64,000 bases of DNA, taken from NCBI RefSeq assembly GCF_001027925.1, contig NZ_LECT01000007.1, forward strand, positions 62,001 through 126,000, written 5' to 3'. Shown one piece after another: positions 20,292 through 31,241 of the stretch. The notes beneath the pieces are model-generated. The model had not been told where the DNA came from, did no database searches, and saw only the letters and a list, made by a program, of their open reading frames with translations. The DNA comes from Rhodopirellula islandica (GTDB lineage: Bacteria > Planctomycetota > Planctomycetia > Pirellulales > Pirellulaceae). The translations under genes and the position numbers were made by a program. How positions within the stretch are numbered: position 1 is the first letter of the stretch; every line of letters starts with the position of its first letter.

Positions 20292-21146
20292 ATGATGGAT
20301 CTGATTTTGTCGTCGGTTGAGGTCGCGGCGGAAGCGCCGCTGTGGTCGGTGCCATCCTTGATTGCGCTGTTCGCGTTGACGCTGATGGAAATCGTGTTGG
20401 GCATCGACAACATTGTGTTCATCGCGATTCTGACCGGTAAATTGCCCGCCGAGAAACGTTCCTTCGCTCGGCGGTTTGGATTGTTTCTCGCGATGGGGAT
20501 GCGCATCCTGCTGCTGTTGATGATCGGTTGGCTGATGAGTCTGCAGTCGCCGATTTTTGAACTGTCGTCGCTGGTCCCGGTGGAGACGCTGAAAGAGCAC
20601 TTGATCGCCGACCCTGAGATCAACGAGATCAGCGGTCGCGATTTGATCTTGTTGTTCGGTGGTATGTTTTTGATGTTCACCGCGGTTCGAGAAATTCACC
20701 ACAAAGTGGAAGGGGAGCACGACGACGACCCGCAGATGGACATGGATTTGCCCGAGGCCGATGCGGCGGTGAAATCGCGAAAACCGGTGACCGTGACTTC
20801 GGTGTTGGTTCAGATCGCGGTGATGGACGTGATCTTTTCGCTTGATAGCGTGATCACTGCGGTCGGGATGGCATCGCACCTGCCGATCATGATCGCGGCG
20901 GTGGTGATCAGTGTGGGGGTGATGATCACGTTTGCCAATCAAATCAGTGACTTCGTTCAGGAGCACCCAACTGTCAAAATGTTGGCGTTGTCATTCCTGA
21001 TTCTGATTTCGGTGGTGCTGCTCAGCGAAGCCGTCGGAACGCCGATCAACAAAGGCTACGTTTACTTCGCGATGGCATTCTCAATGATGGTCGAGTTTTT
21101 GAACCTTCGCACAACGAAAAAAGTGGTCGTCCAGCCCGCTCAGTGA
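20292..21146 (+). CDS. TerC family integral membrane protein
   Basis: About 284 residues are encoded from the ATG at 20292 (MMDLILSSVEV). There are seven or so membrane helices and the two conserved acidic membrane motifs of TerC: MEIVLGIDNIVFIAIL near residue 36 and DVIFSLDSVITAVGMA near residue 185. TerC proteins are implicated in metal-ion (notably manganese) efflux at the membrane and in tellurite resistance. A His/Asp-rich cytoplasmic loop (HHKVEGEHDDDPQMDMD) separates the halves and could bind metal (inference). Its last 7 bases overlap the 3' end of the convergent ASPIC gene. Confidence 0.9.
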   Translation: MMDLILSSVEVAAEAPLWSVPSLIALFALTLMEIVLGIDNIVFIAILTGKLPAEKRSFARRFGLFLAMGMRILLLLMIGWLMSLQSPIFELSSLVPVETLKEHLIADPEINEISGRDLILLFGGMFLMFTAVREIHHKVEGEHDDDPQMDMDLPEADAAVKSRKPVTVTSVLVQIAVMDVIFSLDSVITAVGMASHLPIMIAAVVISVGVMITFANQISDFVQEHPTVKMLALSFLILISVVLLSEAVGTPINKGYVYFAMAFSMMVEFLNLRTTKKVVVQPAQ

Positions 21147-24100
21147 GCCTGTGCTTGGCTTCGACGCTCCGGTGTCATCTCGCCACGCGACCAGAATTGC
21201 CGGAACGGTTGTTCCCGCGAAAGGTGGTTGGCGTTGGTTTGACGTGAATTGGCCGCCTCGCTGATCTGCGAAGTGGTGGGCGGGTACTTGCTCATGGATT
21301 GAAATGGCAACGGCAGCGTTGATTGACCAGCCAACGTGTTCAGGTCGGCGTCCTTGTCCCAACCCACCCCGTGCAAGACGAAGTCGCGTTGCTTGGAAGC
21401 GGCCAGTGGTTCCTTGGGAACCGCGAAACGCAACCGGATCTCATCGCCGCCGCTGATGACAACCATGGAATCATCCCAGTCGGCGATCAAGTCCTCGACG
21501 GGGCCGTACTGGGTCAGTGGACCGTCCAGAGGCGGCCATCGCGGAGCATCCTGCGCCGTTTGGTAGTCGTAGGTCTCGGGTTGTTTGGAACCGGGGTGGA
21601 TGCGTCGAGAAAAACCGTGCCAAGCCACTTCTGCAGACTGCAGTTGCAGCGGTCGCACGTCCACCAGGTCACGGAGTCGCTCGATCTCGGCCACTGTGCG
21701 AACGGACACCGCGGCCGAGTCCCAATAGATCTGGTTGGTGGTTCGGATTCGCACGCGAGGGTCGTCTCGGTTCATGAAATCGGTGACATCGACCACGATG
21801 GTTTTGTTCTTGCCGCCAGGGAACCCAATGAAAGGCGAGGCCATTTTCCAGCCGGATTCAGAGGCGTCATCAGGGACCCACAGCGAAGGAGGTTCGGGCG
21901 ATGCAAGTTCAGGGTTCTGGTCAATTTGGATGTTCAGCGAGGTGTCTGTCGGAAGGATCCAACCGTTGAGAACCAAATGGATTTTTGCATCCCCGGAGGT
22001 CTCATTGGAGACACGATCACTGAGGTCCAGGTCGATCCAGTGGGGCGGGCAGAGGCCTTGTCGAAAGCGGTGTTCGAACCCTTGCACGTGCTCGCCATCC
22101 GTTTCGCGGAGGAGTGACGTGACATCGGTTCCCGCGGTATCGGTGGCTTTCAAAATCGGGCGAAGTTCCGATCGATCGAAGGCGTGGATCGTTGGTTCGG
22201 CGATCGAGGGTGGGCCCACCTTCTCATTGGTGAACACCACGATGTCTTCGGGGTGGTCAATCGCGGCCAATCCCAATTGGTCGAAGTAGGCGACTTCCCA
22301 AAGCTCTTCCGTGATTCGAAGTTCGTAGGCTCCGTCGTTGGGGGCCAAGAACTTTCCTTCGACCAGCAAGTGTTCCCAAGGTCGGTCAGGCACGACCACA
22401 CCGGGGGACGTTTGCAGTCCCAGCGGCGCGGCCCACAAACAGTCGGTGACAAATTCAAATCGCTCGCCGTTGAAGGCATACAGGTAAGGGCAAGATCCTT
22501 TGAGCGTTTGTTCTTCTTCGATCATGACGCCAGGTTCAATCTTGGGAACCGATTGCGTCAGGCCGTTGGGGAAGATGACTCGCAGGTTCCCTGGGCCGAC
22601 CAGACCATCAAGCCCAAAATGGGTGGTGGGTTCCGTAACAATGCGAGAGCGATAGTGCGGGCCAAAACGAAGTTCCAAAACCGAGCCCACGGCATAGTGG
22701 TTGACTCGTCCGCTGTTCGCATTGTTGTCATCAATGCCTTTGAAGCGAACGGAGACGGCTTTGCCGTCCAGTTCCGTTGAGTTGGAGGCGATGGAAATGG
22801 TGGATGCTTGGGGTTCACTCGCTTCCGACCAACCCGCTAAATCAAGACGCAAGTCACCATCGAAGTCGACGGCCGAGCGAATGTGAACCGCTGGATGGTC
22901 GGTCGCGTTTTTCCATTGCAGTTCTTGTTGCGGGCCGAAAGCGGAAGGCGAATCTTCGGAAATCGAGGTGGCTGAAAGTTCCAGCGCGGAGGAGGCGATT
23001 CCGCCACGAAGGCATTCGAAGAAACTGTCGTTGTCCAAGTCCGCAACGATGAGTGAGCCTGGTTGGGGTGCCGTTGGCTGTGTTGCGTCTTCCGTTGTCG
23101 GCCAGGAGAAAGGTGTGACCGCATCCACTCGCCAGACACCGATGTCGCCGGTGTGCGACAACACGAGTTGGCCTATTTCAGGCGACCCCAGCACGATGTC
23201 CCAGGACACATTGCCGTCGATGTCTTCGATGGCCAGCGAATCGACTCCTGGCAGAACCGGGATGTCGTCGAAGTACGAGAAGCGAAACTGCAGGTGAAGC
23301 AAGTTTTCGATCCAGCCGACGCGACCGGATTGAGGATGAACGGTCACGACGTCCAGGTCCAAATCGCGATCCAAGTCCGCGATCGCGAAAGCGACGGGGG
23401 GATCCTTTGGGTCCCACTCGCTTGCTTGTTGGTCATTCGTCGGCAACGGGAAGAACGTTCGGTTGCCACGGTTGACCAGCAATTCCCAGCCCCGCTGAGT
23501 TGCGGCCATGAGGTCGAGGTCACCGTCGCCTTCGAAGTCGCCACTGATCATTGCGTGGACGTTCTGGAGTGTCTCCAGCCCGTCGGCGGTGTCCGTTTTC
23601 AGAGCGTTTTCAGCCGTCGCGTCGGGGGTGCCGAAGTCTCTTCCGTCGACAACGACCAATTGAGCGCCCGAGTCGCCATAGAGGATCAGACTTCGAATTG
23701 TATTGTGGCTGCGTGAGGTTGTGTTTTGCCGAAGCCGCCCAGATGAACTGGAGTCAACCATGAACAGATCCGCGACCATCATGCCGGTCCACCGGCCGTC
23801 CACGTTCAAGGTTCCGTGGTTCTGCCAGCCCTCGTCACCTTGCATCCAAAGAAGCAACTGCGCGGAGTCCTCGCCGGGGTGCATCGAGACCAAGTCCATT
23901 CGGAAATCGAGGTTGGCGTCGATGGGAATCATCTCGGCCGGCACAGGGAGTTTTCCATCGGCGGAATCCGCCGCGGCCTCCACGCTCAGTGATTCCACTG
24001 CAAAAGACAACGCTCCTGAGGCCGATGGGATGCGAGATTGCTCGGAAACTTGCGCAGACAGACGACGCAGGGATTCAAACTGAATCAGATCCAAGGGGTG

Positions 24101-25150
24101 TGGTGACGCTCGACGACGATCGGTTTTAATCAGCTCGGTTGAGTTCAGCAGATTGAACCAGAGCATCATTTGGTTGTCGGCAGCTTCAAATTCACCGGCT
24201 TCCACCGAGGCCACAATTCCATCGACCAATTCACCAGGTGTCTTTCCGATCGGGGCGGTTTGTTGGCGAAGGGTGGGTTCGATCGACGCGGCCAGTGTTT
24301 GTGTCCGCCGGATCGCATCGACGGCTGATTTGGATTGATTCGCGATTCCAAGGCGGGCGGCTCGGACTGCCAGATAAAGGTTGTTGGGTTGTTGATCGGA
24401 AAGCTGTGTCAACGCGTTCGCGGCGGGATCCAGGATCGTGGCCGGAATCCCACGGATGGGATCTTCCAACACATCGATGACTTGGGTCAGCGTGCCCGCC
24501 AATAAAATGGAATTGTTCTTGCTGCCGTCGCTTTCAGTTGTGTTTTGGATCGATTCGATCAGTCTCGCAAAAACTTCCTTGCGGATGGACTGCATCACCG
24601 AGCGTGGCAGCAGTTTGGCTTCGTTCAGATCGACGCGGGCGTTCATCCATGTGGCAAGATTGGAATCGCCACCGAGTTCAACATACTTTTGGATCAGACC
24701 GCGAGTTTCGGATAGCAACGCTGCCAGACGCTGACGGGCAGCCTGCTTTTCGTCTTGTTTGGCGGAGGCGTCAGTGGCGACGGCCGTCAATTCGTCGATC
24801 GTCAGGGCTCGGTTCAGGGCCCGGTTCAGGGCGATCGAGAGATCCTCGGGACGAGTCTTGGAGAGCGAGGACCATGCCGTTTCGGCTTGGTCGGTTTCCA
24901 AGTTCTCCATCGAGGCCAGCGCAACTCGGTTCAGATCAAGGTTCTGCGACGCGAGCTGATTGGCATCTTCGTCGACCTCCGTGAGGGTGTCATCGTCGGC
25001 AACATCGGCTGGCCCGCGACTGAACCAATACCCTGCCCCAGCGAGCACACCAAGAGCGACGAGGGCGATCCCCCAGACGCTGGAAGTGGGCTGTTTGTTG
25101 GCCTGAGATTGCTGGTTGGCGGGGGATTGAGATGAAGTCACCGATAGCAT
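21140..25150 (-). CDS. Giant membrane-anchored FG-GAP / ASPIC-UnbV protein
   Basis: The protein has about 1336 residues from the ATG at 25150. A GTG at 25141 has better Shine-Dalgarno spacing to AAGGA and may be the real start. One N-terminal transmembrane segment (GIALVALGVLAGAGYWF) places the rest outside the cytoplasm. Residues about 60-400 are helical, with an ALNRALNRAL mini-repeat. Then come FG-GAP repeats (DFEGDGDLDLMAA, DLDRDLDLDVVTV, DLDNDSFFE, DFDGDLRLDLAGW). An ASPIC/UnbV region lies near residues 790-890 (LELRFG, HFGLDG, NLRVIFPNG). The C-terminal 400 residues are beta-rich and unassigned. ASPIC proteins are common in planctomycetes and their role is poorly known. It follows the Hsp70 operon by 87 bases. 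Confidence 0.82.
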   Translation of the reverse strand: MLSVTSSQSPANQQSQANKQPTSSVWGIALVALGVLAGAGYWFSRGPADVADDDTLTEVDEDANQLASQNLDLNRVALASMENLETDQAETAWSSLSKTRPEDLSIALNRALNRALTIDELTAVATDASAKQDEKQAARQRLAALLSETRGLIQKYVELGGDSNLATWMNARVDLNEAKLLPRSVMQSIRKEVFARLIESIQNTTESDGSKNNSILLAGTLTQVIDVLEDPIRGIPATILDPAANALTQLSDQQPNNLYLAVRAARLGIANQSKSAVDAIRRTQTLAASIEPTLRQQTAPIGKTPGELVDGIVASVEAGEFEAADNQMMLWFNLLNSTELIKTDRRRASPHPLDLIQFESLRRLSAQVSEQSRIPSASGALSFAVESLSVEAAADSADGKLPVPAEMIPIDANLDFRMDLVSMHPGEDSAQLLLWMQGDEGWQNHGTLNVDGRWTGMMVADLFMVDSSSSGRLRQNTTSRSHNTIRSLILYGDSGAQLVVVDGRDFGTPDATAENALKTDTADGLETLQNVHAMISGDFEGDGDLDLMAATQRGWELLVNRGNRTFFPLPTNDQQASEWDPKDPPVAFAIADLDRDLDLDVVTVHPQSGRVGWIENLLHLQFRFSYFDDIPVLPGVDSLAIEDIDGNVSWDIVLGSPEIGQLVLSHTGDIGVWRVDAVTPFSWPTTEDATQPTAPQPGSLIVADLDNDSFFECLRGGIASSALELSATSISEDSPSAFGPQQELQWKNATDHPAVHIRSAVDFDGDLRLDLAGWSEASEPQASTISIASNSTELDGKAVSVRFKGIDDNNANSGRVNHYAVGSVLELRFGPHYRSRIVTEPTTHFGLDGLVGPGNLRVIFPNGLTQSVPKIEPGVMIEEEQTLKGSCPYLYAFNGERFEFVTDCLWAAPLGLQTSPGVVVPDRPWEHLLVEGKFLAPNDGAYELRITEELWEVAYFDQLGLAAIDHPEDIVVFTNEKVGPPSIAEPTIHAFDRSELRPILKATDTAGTDVTSLLRETDGEHVQGFEHRFRQGLCPPHWIDLDLSDRVSNETSGDAKIHLVLNGWILPTDTSLNIQIDQNPELASPEPPSLWVPDDASESGWKMASPFIGFPGGKNKTIVVDVTDFMNRDDPRVRIRTTNQIYWDSAAVSVRTVAEIERLRDLVDVRPLQLQSAEVAWHGFSRRIHPGSKQPETYDYQTAQDAPRWPPLDGPLTQYGPVEDLIADWDDSMVVISGGDEIRLRFAVPKEPLAASKQRDFVLHGVGWDKDADLNTLAGQSTLPLPFQSMSKYPPTTSQISEAANSRQTNANHLSREQPFRQFWSRGEMTPERRSQAQAH

Positions 25151-25237
25151 CCTTGAAAAACAAACTGACACGAGCTCGAGAGCGGATGCAGTCTAACAAA
25201 TGCGAGGGATTTCGATGCGGCAGACGATCGAATCTGC

Positions 25238-28132
25238 CTACCCTCGCAATTCGATTCCCAGCGGCAAGGTGTCTCCAAAGACGGCCTGTTGTTCTTCGTG
25301 GTCGAGTTGGCCGCCGTTCTTGACCAGTTCGGTCCAGTGATCCGGGGCGTCCAGCCGATCCAGCAGACTCAGGGCGCGGTCACGTGTGGGGTGATCGACA
25401 TCACGAAAACGGTCGTCGCAGCGTCGGGTCATCTGCGTGATCGCGAATGCGGCTGGCCGCCTGGTTGCGTCGTCCTTGGTTTCAAGCGAGCGAGAATGAG
25501 CGAGTTTTTGGATCCAGTGCGAGACGTCCGTGGCTGGGACGATCAAATTCAGCGGCCCATATGCCAACACGCGAGACGCGAGACGGCCAAGCGTCCAAAA
25601 CAAACTGGGGTACAGCGGCGACGCTTTCTTGCGATCCAGCGAGTCCATGACGGCGGTTGCAAAGCTTCGTTTCTGATCGATTGGAAGCCATTCCAGGGAA
25701 CCGATGGTACGCCACGCTTCATTGGCTTCGGCCATGTCCTGGTTGCTGGTTCCTGCCAGCAGCCATTTGCCCAGCGATGTCGCCAGTTGGCTTTGCTGGC
25801 CCGCGGTCATCCCGCCCGCGATGCGTCGCCACATCACATAGGATTCAGCGCGGACTTGATGGTCCGGGTGGGAGATCTTTCCGTAGATCATTCGCCAGGT
25901 CTGAGAGGTTCGCCAGTCATCGACCGCGACGCCATATCCAGGACGCAACGCGAAACCGGCCAGGTTCAACCACCGCGACTCGTGGGCAGGTGAGCGTCGG
26001 CGGTTGTCTTGAACCTCCATCAGCGTTTCCCACAACTGACGCAGGAGCGCCGGTGGCCATTGATCGCGAGAATTGCCCAGTGTGGTTTGCAGGCGTTTGA
26101 TCAGCAGCGACGGCTTGAGTGATCCGTCCACAAAGACACGTGAAATCAGCTGCCGGCATTCATCGAGCGTTTCTTCATCGACGATCCCGGCCGATTCACC
26201 GGCGTAGTCGTGCGATTCTCGGTCGGTTTCCAATGTTCCCCGAATATCAAATTCCAGCCGCCATCGTTTGTCATTGGAAACGCAGAAGAGTCCAACGGTG
26301 CCAATTTCAGAGAGTTCTGATTCGATCACGATTTGCATCGTGGATTGGTCGCGGCGTTTGCGATCTTTGAGTGCCGTTTGGATGGGCGGCAACGCGGTCA
26401 TGGTGTTGGGGTCGATGTCGACGATGTCACCCGGACGGTCGGCCAAACGTGTGCTGCTGACCCAGAGTGGAAAACTGACGGGCACGCCAACTCGCAAATC
26501 CATTGGGACTTGGTCGATGCGATAGGATTGCCCGGCTTGCGCGTCCGCGGGGATCACGCACACGGCTCGCGGCGGGTTCTGTTCGATCTGCATGAAGTAA
26601 GTTCGTGCCAGGTTCGCGGCGATCCGAACCCCGTGCCCCCGACGAACCATGGCGTAGTGGGCGGCACCTTGAGCAACTGCCAGATCCAAGCGAGCGGATT
26701 CCAAGACGGCTGGTTCGGAAAACCACTTCGTCAGCGAACCGACCACTCGTTTGCGAATCGCCGGCGCGGTGAGCACGCCACCGTTGAAGAGGACCAAGTT
26801 GACTTGGTCGCTGTCCACGGAATTCGCCGCGTCCGCCGGTTGGTCATCCAGACCGGTGCGACGATGTTCGCGAAGAAATTCAGCGAGGTGTTTGGTGACG
26901 GCGGGGTCCGCTGCGTAAGGCAAGCCAACCTCTTGGAATCCGCTCTGTTGCGAATCGACTTCCGAGGTCATCTCGACGTCGGGGAAAAATCCGTCGAGCA
27001 ACAGAGCGTCGACTTCCTCTGCGGTCATCTCAACGCTGAGTCCGCCACCGATCAACGAGGAGCCCTCGCCGGGCAAGTGAATGGTCGTGCACTCCGGTCG
27101 CGGTTCTGACAGGAACGTTTCTTTGGTTTGGCGTGCCGCAGCCAACAGTTGTTGCCATTGCCGTGGTGACAGCGTGCGTCCAAGTTTGGCTTCCGCTGCT
27201 TTCGCGACGGCCAGGTCCAGGTTGTCTCCGCCGAGAATCAGGTGTTTTCCCACGGCAACGCGGTGGAACTGAACCACGTTGGATTGATCGTCTTTGTCCG
27301 CAGGACGCACTCGAATGAGGGTCAGGTCGGTGGTGCCTCCGCCGATGTCGCAGACCAGGATGAGCTGGCCGACCTGAACCAATTCTTGCCATTCGTCGCG
27401 GTGCCGATCCAGCCAGGCGTAAAAGGCAGCCTGGGGTTCTTCGATCAATTGAATGCGGGGCAACCCAGCCATCTTTGCGGCGTGGATGGTGAGTTCACGT
27501 GCGACTTCGTCGAAGGAGGCTGGCAACGTGATGACGATGTCTTGTTGGGACATCGGATGCGCGGGGTGTTCCGCGTCCCAAGCATCGGCCAGATGTTTCA
27601 GGTAGCTGGCCGATGCGTCGGCGGGAGAGCGGCGTGGAACATCGTGATCTCCGTGCCATGGCAGTAGGTCCGCGGTGCGATCCACGCCTTCATGAGACAG
27701 CCAGCTTTTGGCCGAAGCAATTTGACGTCCGGGATGCAGCAGGCCAGCCACGCGGGCGTACTCACCGACGCAGGATGCCAGGCCAGCGTCCGTTGGGTTC
27801 AGCCACGGATGGGCGTCGCTGTGGGGGAGCTGTTCTGACGGGTGAAGCGTGTAGTGAAACGAAGGCAACGTGGGTCTGGATTCCGCCACGCCCAGATCGA
27901 CCCATTGCGGCACCAAAAACGTGCGGACGGCAAAGTCCGTGTTCGCACCTTCCCTCGCTTCATTTTGCGAGACACTCTCCGGGGAAGAGGGATGTTTGGG
28001 ATCGGATTCCGTTCCCGTGGCTTCGGTATCGACGTATGCCAGCACGCAATTGGTCGTGCCGAGGTCGATGCCGATGCAGTAGCGTGAGGGAAGCTGGTCG
28101 TCTGGTTCGGACGATGGGACGCGTGAATTCAT
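25238..28132 (-). CDS. Hsp70-like ATPase with long C-terminal helical extension
   Basis: This 964-residue cytoplasmic protein has an N-terminal actin/Hsp70 ATPase domain. Signatures are phosphate-1 YCIGIDLGTTNCVLAYV (about 17-33), phosphate-2 LILVCDIGGGTTDLTLI (about 253) and the adenosine motif LVLFNGGVLTAP (about 448). A substrate-domain-like beta region follows, ending WRLEFDIRG. About 300 more residues are helical and look like the DUF3731 region found in some bacterial Hsp70 relatives. An AGGAA Shine-Dalgarno lies in the 9-base gap to the preceding Hsp70-like gene. It lacks a classical DnaK lid and C-terminal EEVD-type tail. It is probably a specialised chaperone or signalling ATPase; the client is unknown. 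Confidence 0.85.
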   Translation of the reverse strand: MNSRVPSSEPDDQLPSRYCIGIDLGTTNCVLAYVDTEATGTESDPKHPSSPESVSQNEAREGANTDFAVRTFLVPQWVDLGVAESRPTLPSFHYTLHPSEQLPHSDAHPWLNPTDAGLASCVGEYARVAGLLHPGRQIASAKSWLSHEGVDRTADLLPWHGDHDVPRRSPADASASYLKHLADAWDAEHPAHPMSQQDIVITLPASFDEVARELTIHAAKMAGLPRIQLIEEPQAAFYAWLDRHRDEWQELVQVGQLILVCDIGGGTTDLTLIRVRPADKDDQSNVVQFHRVAVGKHLILGGDNLDLAVAKAAEAKLGRTLSPRQWQQLLAAARQTKETFLSEPRPECTTIHLPGEGSSLIGGGLSVEMTAEEVDALLLDGFFPDVEMTSEVDSQQSGFQEVGLPYAADPAVTKHLAEFLREHRRTGLDDQPADAANSVDSDQVNLVLFNGGVLTAPAIRKRVVGSLTKWFSEPAVLESARLDLAVAQGAAHYAMVRRGHGVRIAANLARTYFMQIEQNPPRAVCVIPADAQAGQSYRIDQVPMDLRVGVPVSFPLWVSSTRLADRPGDIVDIDPNTMTALPPIQTALKDRKRRDQSTMQIVIESELSEIGTVGLFCVSNDKRWRLEFDIRGTLETDRESHDYAGESAGIVDEETLDECRQLISRVFVDGSLKPSLLIKRLQTTLGNSRDQWPPALLRQLWETLMEVQDNRRRSPAHESRWLNLAGFALRPGYGVAVDDWRTSQTWRMIYGKISHPDHQVRAESYVMWRRIAGGMTAGQQSQLATSLGKWLLAGTSNQDMAEANEAWRTIGSLEWLPIDQKRSFATAVMDSLDRKKASPLYPSLFWTLGRLASRVLAYGPLNLIVPATDVSHWIQKLAHSRSLETKDDATRRPAAFAITQMTRRCDDRFRDVDHPTRDRALSLLDRLDAPDHWTELVKNGGQLDHEEQQAVFGDTLPLGIELRG

Positions 28133-28141
28133 GCCGTCTTC

Positions 28142-30028
28142 CTAGGACTCATCTTCTTGGCGAGCGTTGAATTCGAGTTTCCAACGACGGTCACCCCGTT
28201 TGTCGTGGCACCAGAGTTCAAACATCCCCAGTTCGGTCACGCGAGATTCGAATTGCACCGGGACGAAGCTGTGGGCCGCTTCGTTTTCAGCGGCAGGTGA
28301 ATTGGGATCCCCGCCTTCGGATCGATGGTGATCCAATGTCAATTCAATGGGTTCGCTCTCTTGCAATTCGGTGGGACTCCAGCGGTCCAAGCGATCGCCG
28401 GGTTTGTCGCTGGCGCGCGTCGTGGAGGAGAAGAATCGGAATCGAGCGGGGGTGCCAACGACGACTCCCACCTCTTGTCCTGGAACTTCCGCTTGGGTTC
28501 CTTCTTCCATGCCTTGTGCTGCCACACAGACCGCACGCAGGGGACGGGGAGCCCCAGGGATCGCCATGCCGGCGGTTTCAATGCCAATGTAAAACGCTTT
28601 GGCTGTGCCGCCGCGAATTCGGATGCCGCCATTGGATTTGGTCCAACCATAGTAGGCCGCACCGATCGCAACGGCGTCGTTGAGGTCATCAGTGGAGGAC
28701 AACGTTTGGACGTCTGTGTCGGTCCAAGAGGAGAGCGTCGACTCCAGTCTTTCACGCATCACGGGACTTCGAAACACGCCGCCGTTGAGCAGCAGGTGCG
28801 TGACCGGCCCGTGGCTTTGATCGTCTTCTGGTTCACCCTTGTGATTGAGAACCGATTGATCCGATAGAAACGCTGCGATGTGTTTGGTGATCGCCGGATC
28901 CGACTCATATGGCAACCCCACGTCTTGAAAGCCGCTGACCACGTTGGCTTGCGGGCGTTCCTGCGGAGCGCACTGAGGGAAGAACCCGTCCAGCAAAAGC
29001 GTTGCCGCATCGCTGCGTTTCATCTCGGTGGTGATCGTGCCACCGATCAGTGAGCTGCCGCGACCGAGAACGGAAATCGATTGGGAATCGGGACCGTCGT
29101 GGCTGAGCAATCGTTCTTTGGCATCGCGACAGGCGTGCCAGAGAGAAGTGCTTTGCCAAGGGTCCAAGTCATGACCGGACTGCCGGAATTGCTCGGCGGC
29201 TTGATAGGCCAGGGCGAGGTCCATGTTGTCACCACCGACCAACAAGTGATTGCCGACGGCGACTCGTTGCAGTGTCAATTCGCCGTCTTCTTCGTGCACG
29301 CCAACGAGTGTCAGGTCGGTGGTCCCACCACCAACGTCAACGACCAACAACGTGTCTCCGTTGTTGAGTGATTTTCGCCAACTGCCGTCGGTCGATGCGA
29401 GGTAGCGATAGACGGCGGCTTGAGGTTCTTCCAGCAGGACAAAGTTTTCATTCAGTCCTGCGCGGATGGCCGCGCGGCGTGTCAATTCGCGTGCGGCGGG
29501 GTCAAAGGAGGCTGGAACGGTCAGCACGACCTGTTGTTGATCGATGGGGGCATCCGGGAACTGAGACTGCCAGGCAGCCACCAAGTGACGCAGGAAAATG
29601 CCGGTGCATTCGACCGCTGAAACTCGCGGGATCTCATCGGGCGATTGCCATGGGAGAACGGGCGAATCAGGATCGACCTTGCGTTGACACAACCAACTTT
29701 TCGCGGCCACGATGACGCGTTGTGGGTTGTCAGCGGCTTGTTGCCGCGCGTAAACGCCAGCGACGCCTTCGGTGGACGACGGGAACCGAGCGTGATCGCT
29801 GGTGACTTCCAGCGAGTCGACTTCTTGATCCCGGGGCAAGTAGAGAAACGACGGCAACGAGGTTCGCGATTCGACCTGGCCGGACGCGACGACCTGGGGG
29901 ATCGGCAGCAGTTGGATCTCAGGGGCTTGGTCCGCCCCGTGGGCTTCCACATCGGATTGGGGGACGTAGGCAACCACACTGTTGGTCGTGCCCAGGTCGA
30001 TCCCGATGCAATATTTTTGCTCGCTCAT
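28142..30028 (-). CDS. Hsp70-like ATPase, shorter paralogue
   Basis: The 628-residue protein is a paralogue of the downstream gene. It has YCIGIDLGTTNSVVAYVP at the N-terminus, TLLVVDVGGGTTDLTLVGV near residue 228 and HLLLNGGVFRSPVM near residue 410. It ends after the segment equivalent to WRLEFDIRG (WKLEFNARQEDES), so it lacks the long helical C-terminus of its neighbour. It sits 6 bases after the peroxiredoxin stop and 9 bases before the second Hsp70-like start, so the three form one operon. No DnaJ or GrpE gene is nearby, which suggests a system separate from the housekeeping DnaK machine. Confidence 0.87.
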   Translation of the reverse strand: MSEQKYCIGIDLGTTNSVVAYVPQSDVEAHGADQAPEIQLLPIPQVVASGQVESRTSLPSFLYLPRDQEVDSLEVTSDHARFPSSTEGVAGVYARQQAADNPQRVIVAAKSWLCQRKVDPDSPVLPWQSPDEIPRVSAVECTGIFLRHLVAAWQSQFPDAPIDQQQVVLTVPASFDPAARELTRRAAIRAGLNENFVLLEEPQAAVYRYLASTDGSWRKSLNNGDTLLVVDVGGGTTDLTLVGVHEEDGELTLQRVAVGNHLLVGGDNMDLALAYQAAEQFRQSGHDLDPWQSTSLWHACRDAKERLLSHDGPDSQSISVLGRGSSLIGGTITTEMKRSDAATLLLDGFFPQCAPQERPQANVVSGFQDVGLPYESDPAITKHIAAFLSDQSVLNHKGEPEDDQSHGPVTHLLLNGGVFRSPVMRERLESTLSSWTDTDVQTLSSTDDLNDAVAIGAAYYGWTKSNGGIRIRGGTAKAFYIGIETAGMAIPGAPRPLRAVCVAAQGMEEGTQAEVPGQEVGVVVGTPARFRFFSSTTRASDKPGDRLDRWSPTELQESEPIELTLDHHRSEGGDPNSPAAENEAAHSFVPVQFESRVTELGMFELWCHDKRGDRRWKLEFNARQEDES

Positions 30029-30034
30029 GATGAT

Positions 30035-30517
30035 TTAGTTTTGCTCTGAGAGTGCAGCGAGGGCGTCGAGGACCTGTTGGTCGTGGCCGTCGACGCGAAC
30101 ACGTTTCCAGACCTTGACCACTTTGCCGTCGGCGTCGATCAAATAGGTCGAGCGTTGGATTCCCATCGATTTCTTGCCGTAGAGGTTCTTCTCTCGATAG
30201 GCACCGTATTTCTCGCTCATGGCATGGTCTTCATCGACCAGCAATGGAAACGGCAGCTCAAATTTTTCGCGAAACTTGACATGGCTTTCGGCGGAATCGG
30301 TGCTGATTCCGAATAGCTGTGCTCCGGCCGCCTGCAAGTCGCCGTATCGATCTCGGAAGGCGCAGGCCTCTTTGGTGCAGCCAGGCGTGTTGTCCTTCGG
30401 GTAGAAGAACAAAACGACCGGGGAACCAGCCAGATCCTTCAATTGGACGGTTTGCCCGTCTTGGTCTTGGAGCGCGAAGGCGGGGGCCTTTTTGCCGGGA
30501 TCGATGAAATCAGCCAT
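30035..30517 (-). CDS. bcp: Thioredoxin-dependent peroxiredoxin (Bcp/PrxQ type)
   Basis: The enzyme has about 160 residues from the ATG at 30517 (MADFIDPGKKAP); an in-frame ATG at 30592 is possible. It has the AhpC/TSA fold with peroxidatic Cys47 and resolving Cys52 in KDNTPGCTKEAC, the five-residue spacing typical of Bcp/PrxQ. The active-site Thr and Pro are present in the same motif. It reduces hydrogen peroxide and organic hydroperoxides using thioredoxin. It is the first gene of an operon with two Hsp70-like proteins, which hints at a response to oxidative protein damage (inference). Confidence 0.92.
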   Translation of the reverse strand: MADFIDPGKKAPAFALQDQDGQTVQLKDLAGSPVVLFFYPKDNTPGCTKEACAFRDRYGDLQAAGAQLFGISTDSAESHVKFREKFELPFPLLVDEDHAMSEKYGAYREKNLYGKKSMGIQRSTYLIDADGKVVKVWKRVRVDGHDQQVLDALAALSEQN

Positions 30518-30836
30518 GATGAGACGCCCCATTTGGGGGCATATGGATTGAAAGGAGGCGGATGGATCAACGCATTGTTTTCGATCGGTCAACTTGTCGC
30601 CAGCGGGGGCGGTTGGGCCAAACCAATGGATCGCATCCGAAGCGGGAAATCAGGCCAGATTCAGCCGTTGGAAAGGCAATTGCCGGGTGCCCCCCACAAA
30701 TAAACGCGTTACACTACGGGGCAATTCCAAGACGTGGGATTGCTCCACCCTCTTCCTTCACCACTCGCATGAAAGTTGTTTGAACTTGTCTGATCAACCG
30801 ACCTCTTCCTCCAACGACACCCCATCAGTTGATCCC

Positions 30837-31241
30837 ATGGCTCATCCCAGTCGGGCGATTCGGCCGCACGGATTGGAAGAAGCGCGCAAACTGGCGACGG
30901 AAGCCGCTCGAGTCGCGTTGGACAACAATGGTCAAGACGTGACGGTCTTGGACGTGAGTGAGCAATCCGCCGAGTTTGATTTCTTCGTCATCGCCACGGG
31001 AACCAGTCGCCGTCAATTGCACGCCATCAGCGAGCAGACCGACGACGCGCTTGAAAAAGGGTTGGGTGACCACCGGCAAGGAATCGAGGGCTATCAGGAA
31101 AGCAGCTGGATCGTGCTGGATTATGGCAGCGTTGTGGTTCATCTGTTTGATGAAGAGACTCGTGAGTACTACGACCTGGAGTCCTTGTGGGCGGATGCCA
31201 CGCCCATTCCGTTGGCGGATCTTGGTTTGACCCAACGCTGA
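30837..31241 (+). CDS. rsfS: Ribosomal silencing factor RsfS (Iojap family)
   Basis: The protein has about 134 residues from the ATG at 30837; TTG codons at 30780 and 30786 could extend it. It carries the family core: VTVLDVSEQSAEFDFFVIAT, GTSRRQLHAISEQ, and the C-terminal WIVLDYGSVVVHLFDEETRE followed by YYDLESLWADA. RsfS binds ribosomal protein L14 (uL14) and blocks subunit joining during nutrient limitation. It lies 61 bases upstream of argS on the same strand. In many bacteria it neighbours nadD, which is not seen here. Confidence 0.92.
   Translation: MAHPSRAIRPHGLEEARKLATEAARVALDNNGQDVTVLDVSEQSAEFDFFVIATGTSRRQLHAISEQTDDALEKGLGDHRQGIEGYQESSWIVLDYGSVVVHLFDEETREYYDLESLWADATPIPLADLGLTQR

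Follow-up and report, generated by a model that had tools for sequence, protein, structure and literature searches.

Genes at the locus

We analysed a 64,000-nucleotide (nt) stretch (the window) of contig NZ_LECT01000007.1 of the planctomycete Rhodopirellula islandica, whose minus strand carries three tandem genes separated by 6 and 9 nt: a peroxiredoxin gene (PRX) and two genes encoding Hsp70-like proteins (HA and HB). A first-pass annotation, based on the sequence alone, had suggested that the three genes could be an oxidative-stress chaperone system distinct from DnaK. Our comparative analysis leads us to favour, if only somewhat, another view, in which HA and HB, together with a small protein of the DUF2760 family encoded elsewhere in this genome, are parts of one ATP-driven Hsp70-type machine and PRX is a lineage-specific neighbour. 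This would probably be an uncharacterised Hsp70 machine that is independent of J-proteins.

PRX (positions 30035..30517 of the window, minus strand, like the other window genes given below) encodes a 160-amino acid (aa) protein when read from the ATG at 30517, although the open reading frame (ORF) listing begins it further upstream, at a TTG. Its assignment as a PrxQ/Bcp-type peroxiredoxin is borne out by matches to PF00578 (E = 4.1e-45) and to the thioredoxin-dependent thiol peroxidase model NF006960 (152.6 against a cut-off of 140 bits), while the narrower model NF053650 was not reached (185.9 against 260 bits). HA (28142..30028, 628 aa) consists of a nucleotide-binding domain and a short C-terminal beta region, and HB (25238..28132, 964 aa) is an Hsp70-like protein with a DUF3731 domain. 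Both exceed the Pfam HSP70 cut-off, and the ORF coordinates agree with the short spacings and with the two Hsp70-like proteins that had first been noticed. The DUF3731 match (PF12531, described in Pfam as 'DNA-K related protein') covers HB residues 714-962 (25247..25993; E = 2.1e-76; 257.5 against 25 bits), with the profile aligned over its full length (positions 1-248 of 248).

The first-pass annotation had also remarked that neither DnaJ nor GrpE is encoded nearby. This holds for J-domain proteins, because the three J-domain matches in the genome, one of which is below the family cut-off, all lie off the contig of the window (C7). For GrpE it holds among the nine window ORFs scanned near these genes, no genome-wide search with a GrpE model having been made. 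Scans of positions 25000-31000 for promoters (0 found against 1.1 in shuffled sequences) and terminators (4 against 6.9) gave fewer hits than the shuffled sequences did.

Sequence features of HA and HB

Although HA and HB match Pfam HSP70, both score far below the cut-offs of the DnaK and HscA models. The DnaK cut-offs were not reached with NF001413 (65.9 bits for HA and 57.5 for HB against 648) or TIGR02350 (67.1 and 55.2 against 822.55), and neither were those of HscA (82.8 for HA and for HB against 620 bits; 78.1 against 708.55). To compare individual residues, we aligned 86 HA and 131 HB sequences (217 in total, near-copies kept) with the DnaK and the HscC-like protein of the same genome; residue numbers are taken to follow those of Escherichia coli DnaK. 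The residues equivalent to D8, T11, K70, E171, D194, T199 and D201 of the ATPase site are retained in all 86 HA sequences and in the 131 HB sequences, except for two with gaps at D8 and T11 owing to cut N-termini.

The positions that we take to be J-domain contacts in DnaK, namely R167, N170 and the Asp of the linker, are less well kept. The N170 equivalent is Glu in every HA and HB sequence, and R167 has been lost from 85 of 86 HA and 96 of 131 HB sequences. The hydrophobic interdomain linker VLLLD is found in none of the 217 sequences and is replaced by a Gly/Ala-rich stretch, in which the third position (L391) is never Leu (Gly, Ala, Ser or Tyr in HA; Gly, Ala, Ser or Thr in HB).

The R. 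islandica genome also encodes a normal DnaK, an HscC-like Hsp70 (C43:216162-217568, L067) and a degenerate Hsp70-like stretch (C45:11551-12639, L003 and L068), the last of which lies within a 1046-aa open frame and has an altered DxGGGT motif. HscC-type Hsp70s have their own J-protein, HscD. HA and HB resemble them in being extra Hsp70s besides DnaK, but the HscC-like protein of this genome keeps R167, N170 and D393, of which N170 and D393 are changed in HA and HB. It is also followed, approximately 1 kb downstream, by a J-domain match below the cut-off (C43:218557-218694), as if it had its own J-protein, whereas HA and HB have no such neighbour.

Predicted structures

An AlphaFold2 model of HB residues 490-964 contains a beta domain (residues 511-628; 26249..26602), perhaps similar to the beta part of a substrate-binding domain (SBD), followed by a predicted helical solenoid of ARM/HEAT-like type (residues 631-951; 25280..26242). 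The 300-residue helical extension proposed from the sequence was thus recovered in the model, which is helical at residues ~631-951 apart from a poorly predicted loop (635-647), and the solenoid has conserved Arg, Trp and Asp positions. Residues ~468-625 of HA (28154..28627) are collinear with the HB beta domain, as judged from the alignment and from homology to the HB model, and no lid helices follow them. HA stops where the solenoid of HB would start; because it ends where the beta domain ends, HA appears to have no lid. For the HB piece, Foldseek listed the SBDs of DnaK and HscA at E-values of 2.3e-3 and above (probability 0.97-1.00) with low TM-scores, a weak likeness in a list that does not show the aligned residues. 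A structural model of a DUF2760 protein gave no significant PDB match.

These features allow a comparison with the canonical DnaK-DnaJ-GrpE system. As in that system, HA and HB have a nucleotide-binding domain with ATPase motifs and a beta domain behind it, and they might be ordinary DnaK-like chaperones that use the DnaJ and GrpE of the cell, with DUF2760 as a client or adaptor. The retained catalytic residues, the weak similarity that Foldseek detects between the HB piece and SBDs of DnaK, and the presence of J-domain proteins elsewhere in the genome are consistent with this explanation. However, the linker and the N170 equivalent are changed in all 217 aligned sequences, HA is lidless, the scores lie far below the DnaK cut-off, and the DUF2760 model resembles nothing significantly in the PDB. 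We therefore regard it as unlikely that HA and HB are ordinary chaperones of this kind. The canonical system also differs from HA and HB in that these two paralogues usually occur together, no J-domain gene is present on their contig, and GrpE is missing among the nine neighbours scanned.

Co-occurrence of HA and HB with DUF2760

For linkage and co-occurrence, we compared 60 genomes, that of R. islandica and those of 59 relatives. Of the 60, 40 carry HA and HB (13 of the genus and 27 others) and 20 do not. DUF3731 was found in 40 of the 60 genomes, and a separate HA gene was present in the same 40, as a contig-end fragment in G314 and split over two contigs in G300. DUF2760 (PF10816) was detected in 39 of these 40 genomes and in none of the other 20; in the sole exception (G339), the contig breaks off within HA. 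In R. islandica, the DUF2760 gene (C3:54882-55424; match at C3:55056-55418, 119.5 against 25 bits) is unlinked to HA and HB and lies beside presumed fusA and ribosomal-protein genes. It adjoins HA in none of the 13 genomes of the genus, as opposed to 22 of the 27 genomes outside it.

The same association was seen in two broader samples, in which only matches over the cut-off were counted. Among 294 Planctomycetota genomes, including that of R. islandica, DUF3731 was found in 30 and DUF2760 in 33, with both in 29 and one only in five, all of which are draft genomes with a completeness of 54-86%; matches below the cut-off (DUF3731 in G179, DUF2760 in G170 and G285) had been dropped before these counts. 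Among 299 Pseudomonadota genomes, the respective numbers were 21, 22, 21 and one. Neither family was found in any of 14 control genomes. Fisher's p-values for co-occurrence were 5e-15 (60 genomes), 1e-34 (Planctomycetota) and 2e-31 (Pseudomonadota), with kinship ignored. When kinship was considered on a DnaK tree of 57 genomes (G310, G321 and G335 were excluded, as no full DnaK match was seen), HB presence required a minimum of 14 changes on the best tree, five of which are forced by well supported branches. DUF2760 changed together with HB in 4.9 on average of five independent pairs on well supported branches (p = 0.06, with few pairs on supported branches). DUF2760 and HB are either both present or both missing, whether scattered or clustered in the genome, and HA accompanies them in nearly all of the genomes searched for it; this is the firm genetic part of our analysis.

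Six Pseudomonadota genomes (G386, G398, G421, G429, G501 and G517) contain a weaker-scoring group of DUF3731 proteins (E = 1e-44 to 1e-48, compared with 1e-75 to 1e-109 for the others), which is perhaps a distinct subfamily; all six also carry DUF2760. Both DUF3731 and DUF2760, matched by HB over its full profile and by the C3 gene, respectively, are uncharacterised in Pfam. Literature searches on DUF3731, DUF2760, Hsp70 with PF12531 and 'DnaK-related protein' found no paper, and the papers searched gave no description of the three-part unit with HA.

Gene order across phyla and on plasmids

A scan of named genomes with an HB alignment provided the best 80 of 259 passing loci, many of them from draft metagenome bins. 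According to the record titles, these loci belong to Planctomycetota, Verrucomicrobia, Lentisphaerae, Desulfobacteraceae and other deltaproteobacteria, Myxococcota, Acidobacteria, Beta- and Gammaproteobacteria, and Chlamydiales. A protein of ~190 aa is repeatedly encoded just upstream of HA, and each of the four members that we scanned is a DUF2760 match. When profiles of the three families were used, DUF2760, HA and HB were found in this order on one strand at 54 of the 80 loci, including one (L184) at which 2.9 kb separate HA from HB. Of the 61 loci for which 3.2 kb or more of upstream sequence was available, 48 show the complete order, 10 HB alone, two DUF2760-HB and one HA-HB. HA is present elsewhere in the genome in 12 of 15 checked genomes whose HB locus has no adjacent HA; three further genomes had HA at the locus and are outside the 15. 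In Pirellulaceae KatS3mg110 (L121/L152), HB is spread over three frames, through either mutation or sequencing error.

A tree of HA and HB was constructed from every second locus (41 of the 80 with both genes). HB forms one side of a fully supported branch, while HA needs two changes on the tree, as the DnaK/HscC outgroup is not cleanly apart from it. Judged from these sequences, HA and HB form two paralogous groups of ancient origin, a result that does not imply that they are each other's closest kin. The tree distances of HA and HB correlate over the 41 loci (r = 0.95), to which shared host ancestry contributes.

HB-type proteins were also detected in 11 of 72,556 plasmid records. The full DUF2760-HA-HB order is present on three of the four annotated plasmids examined, two conjugative plasmids of Bradyrhizobium and one of Comamonadaceae. 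On the Bradyrhizobium plasmids (L226 and L228), the operon has trb transfer genes in its vicinity in one case and groES-groEL in the other. On the Thiodictyon plasmid pTs485 (L229), DUF2760-HA lies close to a TIR-domain gene and to genes annotated as anti-phage. A role in defence was rejected as insufficiently supported, the only indications being weak PADLOC matches to the nucleotide-binding domain and this one plasmid, and a phage origin was rejected because only two weak HscA-type matches were found.

The conjugative plasmids bear on another explanation, in which HA and HB are not a folding chaperone but a regulatory or scaffolding ATPase pair, that is, a pair whose nucleotide-dependent switching would assemble or gate a DUF2760-anchored membrane complex. 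A hydrophobic segment precedes the DUF2760 domain in 21 of 36 proteins, the distribution is patchy, the linker and the beta domain are divergent, and HA has no lid, all of which would suit such a pair. Nevertheless, both paralogues have retained the beta domain, as though the binding of substrates continued to matter, and there is no known client or complex. We consider a scaffolding pair quite unlikely.

Linkage of PRX to HA

The three-gene order was conserved only in part. In all 13 genomes of the genus, PRX lies next to HA on its upstream side, with 7-32 nt between the matches (once 773 nt), and this arrangement is more than chance. PRX, HA and HB are intact as a unit in five of the 13, and a contig end divides the unit in a sixth (G300); in the remaining seven, PRX and HA stand together and HB lies elsewhere. 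Outside the genus, PRX adjoins HA in none of the 27 genomes carrying the pair, in two of which (G314 and G339) a contig end removes the sequence upstream of HA. The adjacency was counted for the best PRX match of each genome, and inspection by eye of the further matches outside the genus found none beside HA. PRX-type matches, some of them distant, occur in all 60 genomes, including matches with at least 60% identity in 12 of the 20 genomes that lack HA and HB. Because PRX is beside HA throughout the genus but in none of the 27 genomes outside it, and because HA and HB are linked in five genus members and contig-split in a sixth, the PRX-HA link looks young and local. These linkage counts lead us to reject PRX as a conserved partner of HA and HB; PRX is a lineage-specific operon neighbour and not a conserved part of the system, although PRX and HA may be co-expressed inside the genus. 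Downstream of HB, at a distance of 66 nt, lies a gene (UP4, 21140..25171) for a 1343-aa protein with an FG-GAP repeat. Its position after HB is kept only in five near relatives (L097, L099, L100, L102 and L106), which show PRX-HA-HB or its contig-split form.

The part of the initial proposal that made the peroxiredoxin a member of the unit did not survive these counts. The first-pass annotation would have taken absence of linkage in other planctomycetes as a refutation, and such absence is what we observed outside the genus. An oxidative-stress operon, in which PRX would detoxify peroxide and HA and HB would hold or refold oxidised proteins, would agree with the constant position of PRX upstream of HA in the genus, but it is very unlikely in view of the lack of adjacency outside the genus (two genomes being cut by contig ends), the presence of PRX-type matches in all 60 genomes, with or without the pair, and the separation of HB from PRX-HA in seven genus members. 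In a study of Myxococcus xanthus that tested six hsp70 genes, deletion of any of the five non-essential ones lowers peroxide survival (PMC8265645); we do not equate these genes with HA or HB. As this phenotype is common to all of the hsp70 mutants examined there and hence not specific, a peroxide phenotype alone would not prove an oxidative-stress function. The portions examined of a paper on stress in Rhodopirellula baltica (PMC2754498) make no mention of peroxiredoxin or of these Hsp70s. At the level of sequence, the other part of the proposal, a chaperone system separate from DnaK, is supported: HA and HB remain far below the cut-offs of DnaK and HscA, lack the DnaK linker, and are retained and lost jointly in a patchy pattern.

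A candidate Hsp70 machine

We lean towards the view that HA, HB and DUF2760 work together in one ATP-driven machine. In such a machine, HA, which lacks a lid, and HB would act as a heteromeric pair. The solenoid of HB might dock on a partner, most simply the nucleotide-binding domain of HA or a client, and this docking would replace control by a J-protein and GrpE. DUF2760, for which a membrane segment is predicted in many lineages, would place the pair at the membrane or at a client, as an anchor or adaptor.

Several observations weigh against this view. HA was not found in three of the 15 genomes checked, the three being drafts (two of Desulfobacula, L164 and L176, and one of Bryobacterales, L188), and DUF2760 is there directly followed by HB. 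These genomes perhaps contain a reduced two-part form, and HA may not always be needed. Conversely, pTs485 carries DUF2760-HA and no HB, as far as the plasmid (not the chromosome) is concerned. R167 is kept in 35 of the 131 HB sequences, so the change at the J-protein site is not uniform. On the DnaK tree, genomes with HB do not cluster (14 changes, compared with a mean of 14.9 after shuffling; 23 of the 54 inner branches lack support), which makes losses, transfers and tree error indistinguishable. No clear transmembrane segment was present in the five planctomycete DUF2760 proteins measured. Foldseek gives the HB beta domain a weak likeness to SBDs (E above 0.001) that the sequence profile does not show, and the ARM/HEAT fold is a common one that reveals no function. 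Finally, the physical complex of HA, HB and DUF2760 and its activity are inferred only.

Two groups of eukaryotic exchange factors offer an analogy for HB. Factors of the Hsp110 type speed the release of ADP from a partner Hsp70, and those of the Armadillo type bind lobe IIB of the nucleotide-binding domain with their concave face. According to a 2015 review (PMC4753570), Hsp110, which works for another Hsp70, is itself Hsp70-like, with insertions and an extended C-terminus, HspBP1/Sil1 are exchange factors with an Armadillo fold that grips the Hsp70 nucleotide-binding domain, and GrpE is the sole known type of exchange factor in bacteria. HB unites both shapes in one chain, an Hsp70-like body and a predicted ARM/HEAT-like solenoid. 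It might then be a bacterial, independently evolved counterpart of Hsp110 and the Armadillo exchange factors combined, with a solenoid that grips the nucleotide-binding domain of HA and drives exchange, allowing an Hsp70 cycle without J-protein and GrpE. We regard this idea as doubtful. A search of the PDB with a profile of HB residues 490-964 found no Hsp110 or HspBP1/Sil1 chain. HspBP1 and Sil1 are also absent among the 50 structural matches listed, which excludes nothing.

Hsp70 is among the best studied molecular machines, and its bacterial cycle, as described in textbooks, relies on DnaJ and GrpE. The three genes described here are few, often adjacent and present in cultivable carriers, so that the question is directly testable. 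If our view is correct, bacteria of several phyla would have another way to run or use Hsp70, with paired Hsp70s, one small partner, no DnaK linker and a built-in solenoid.

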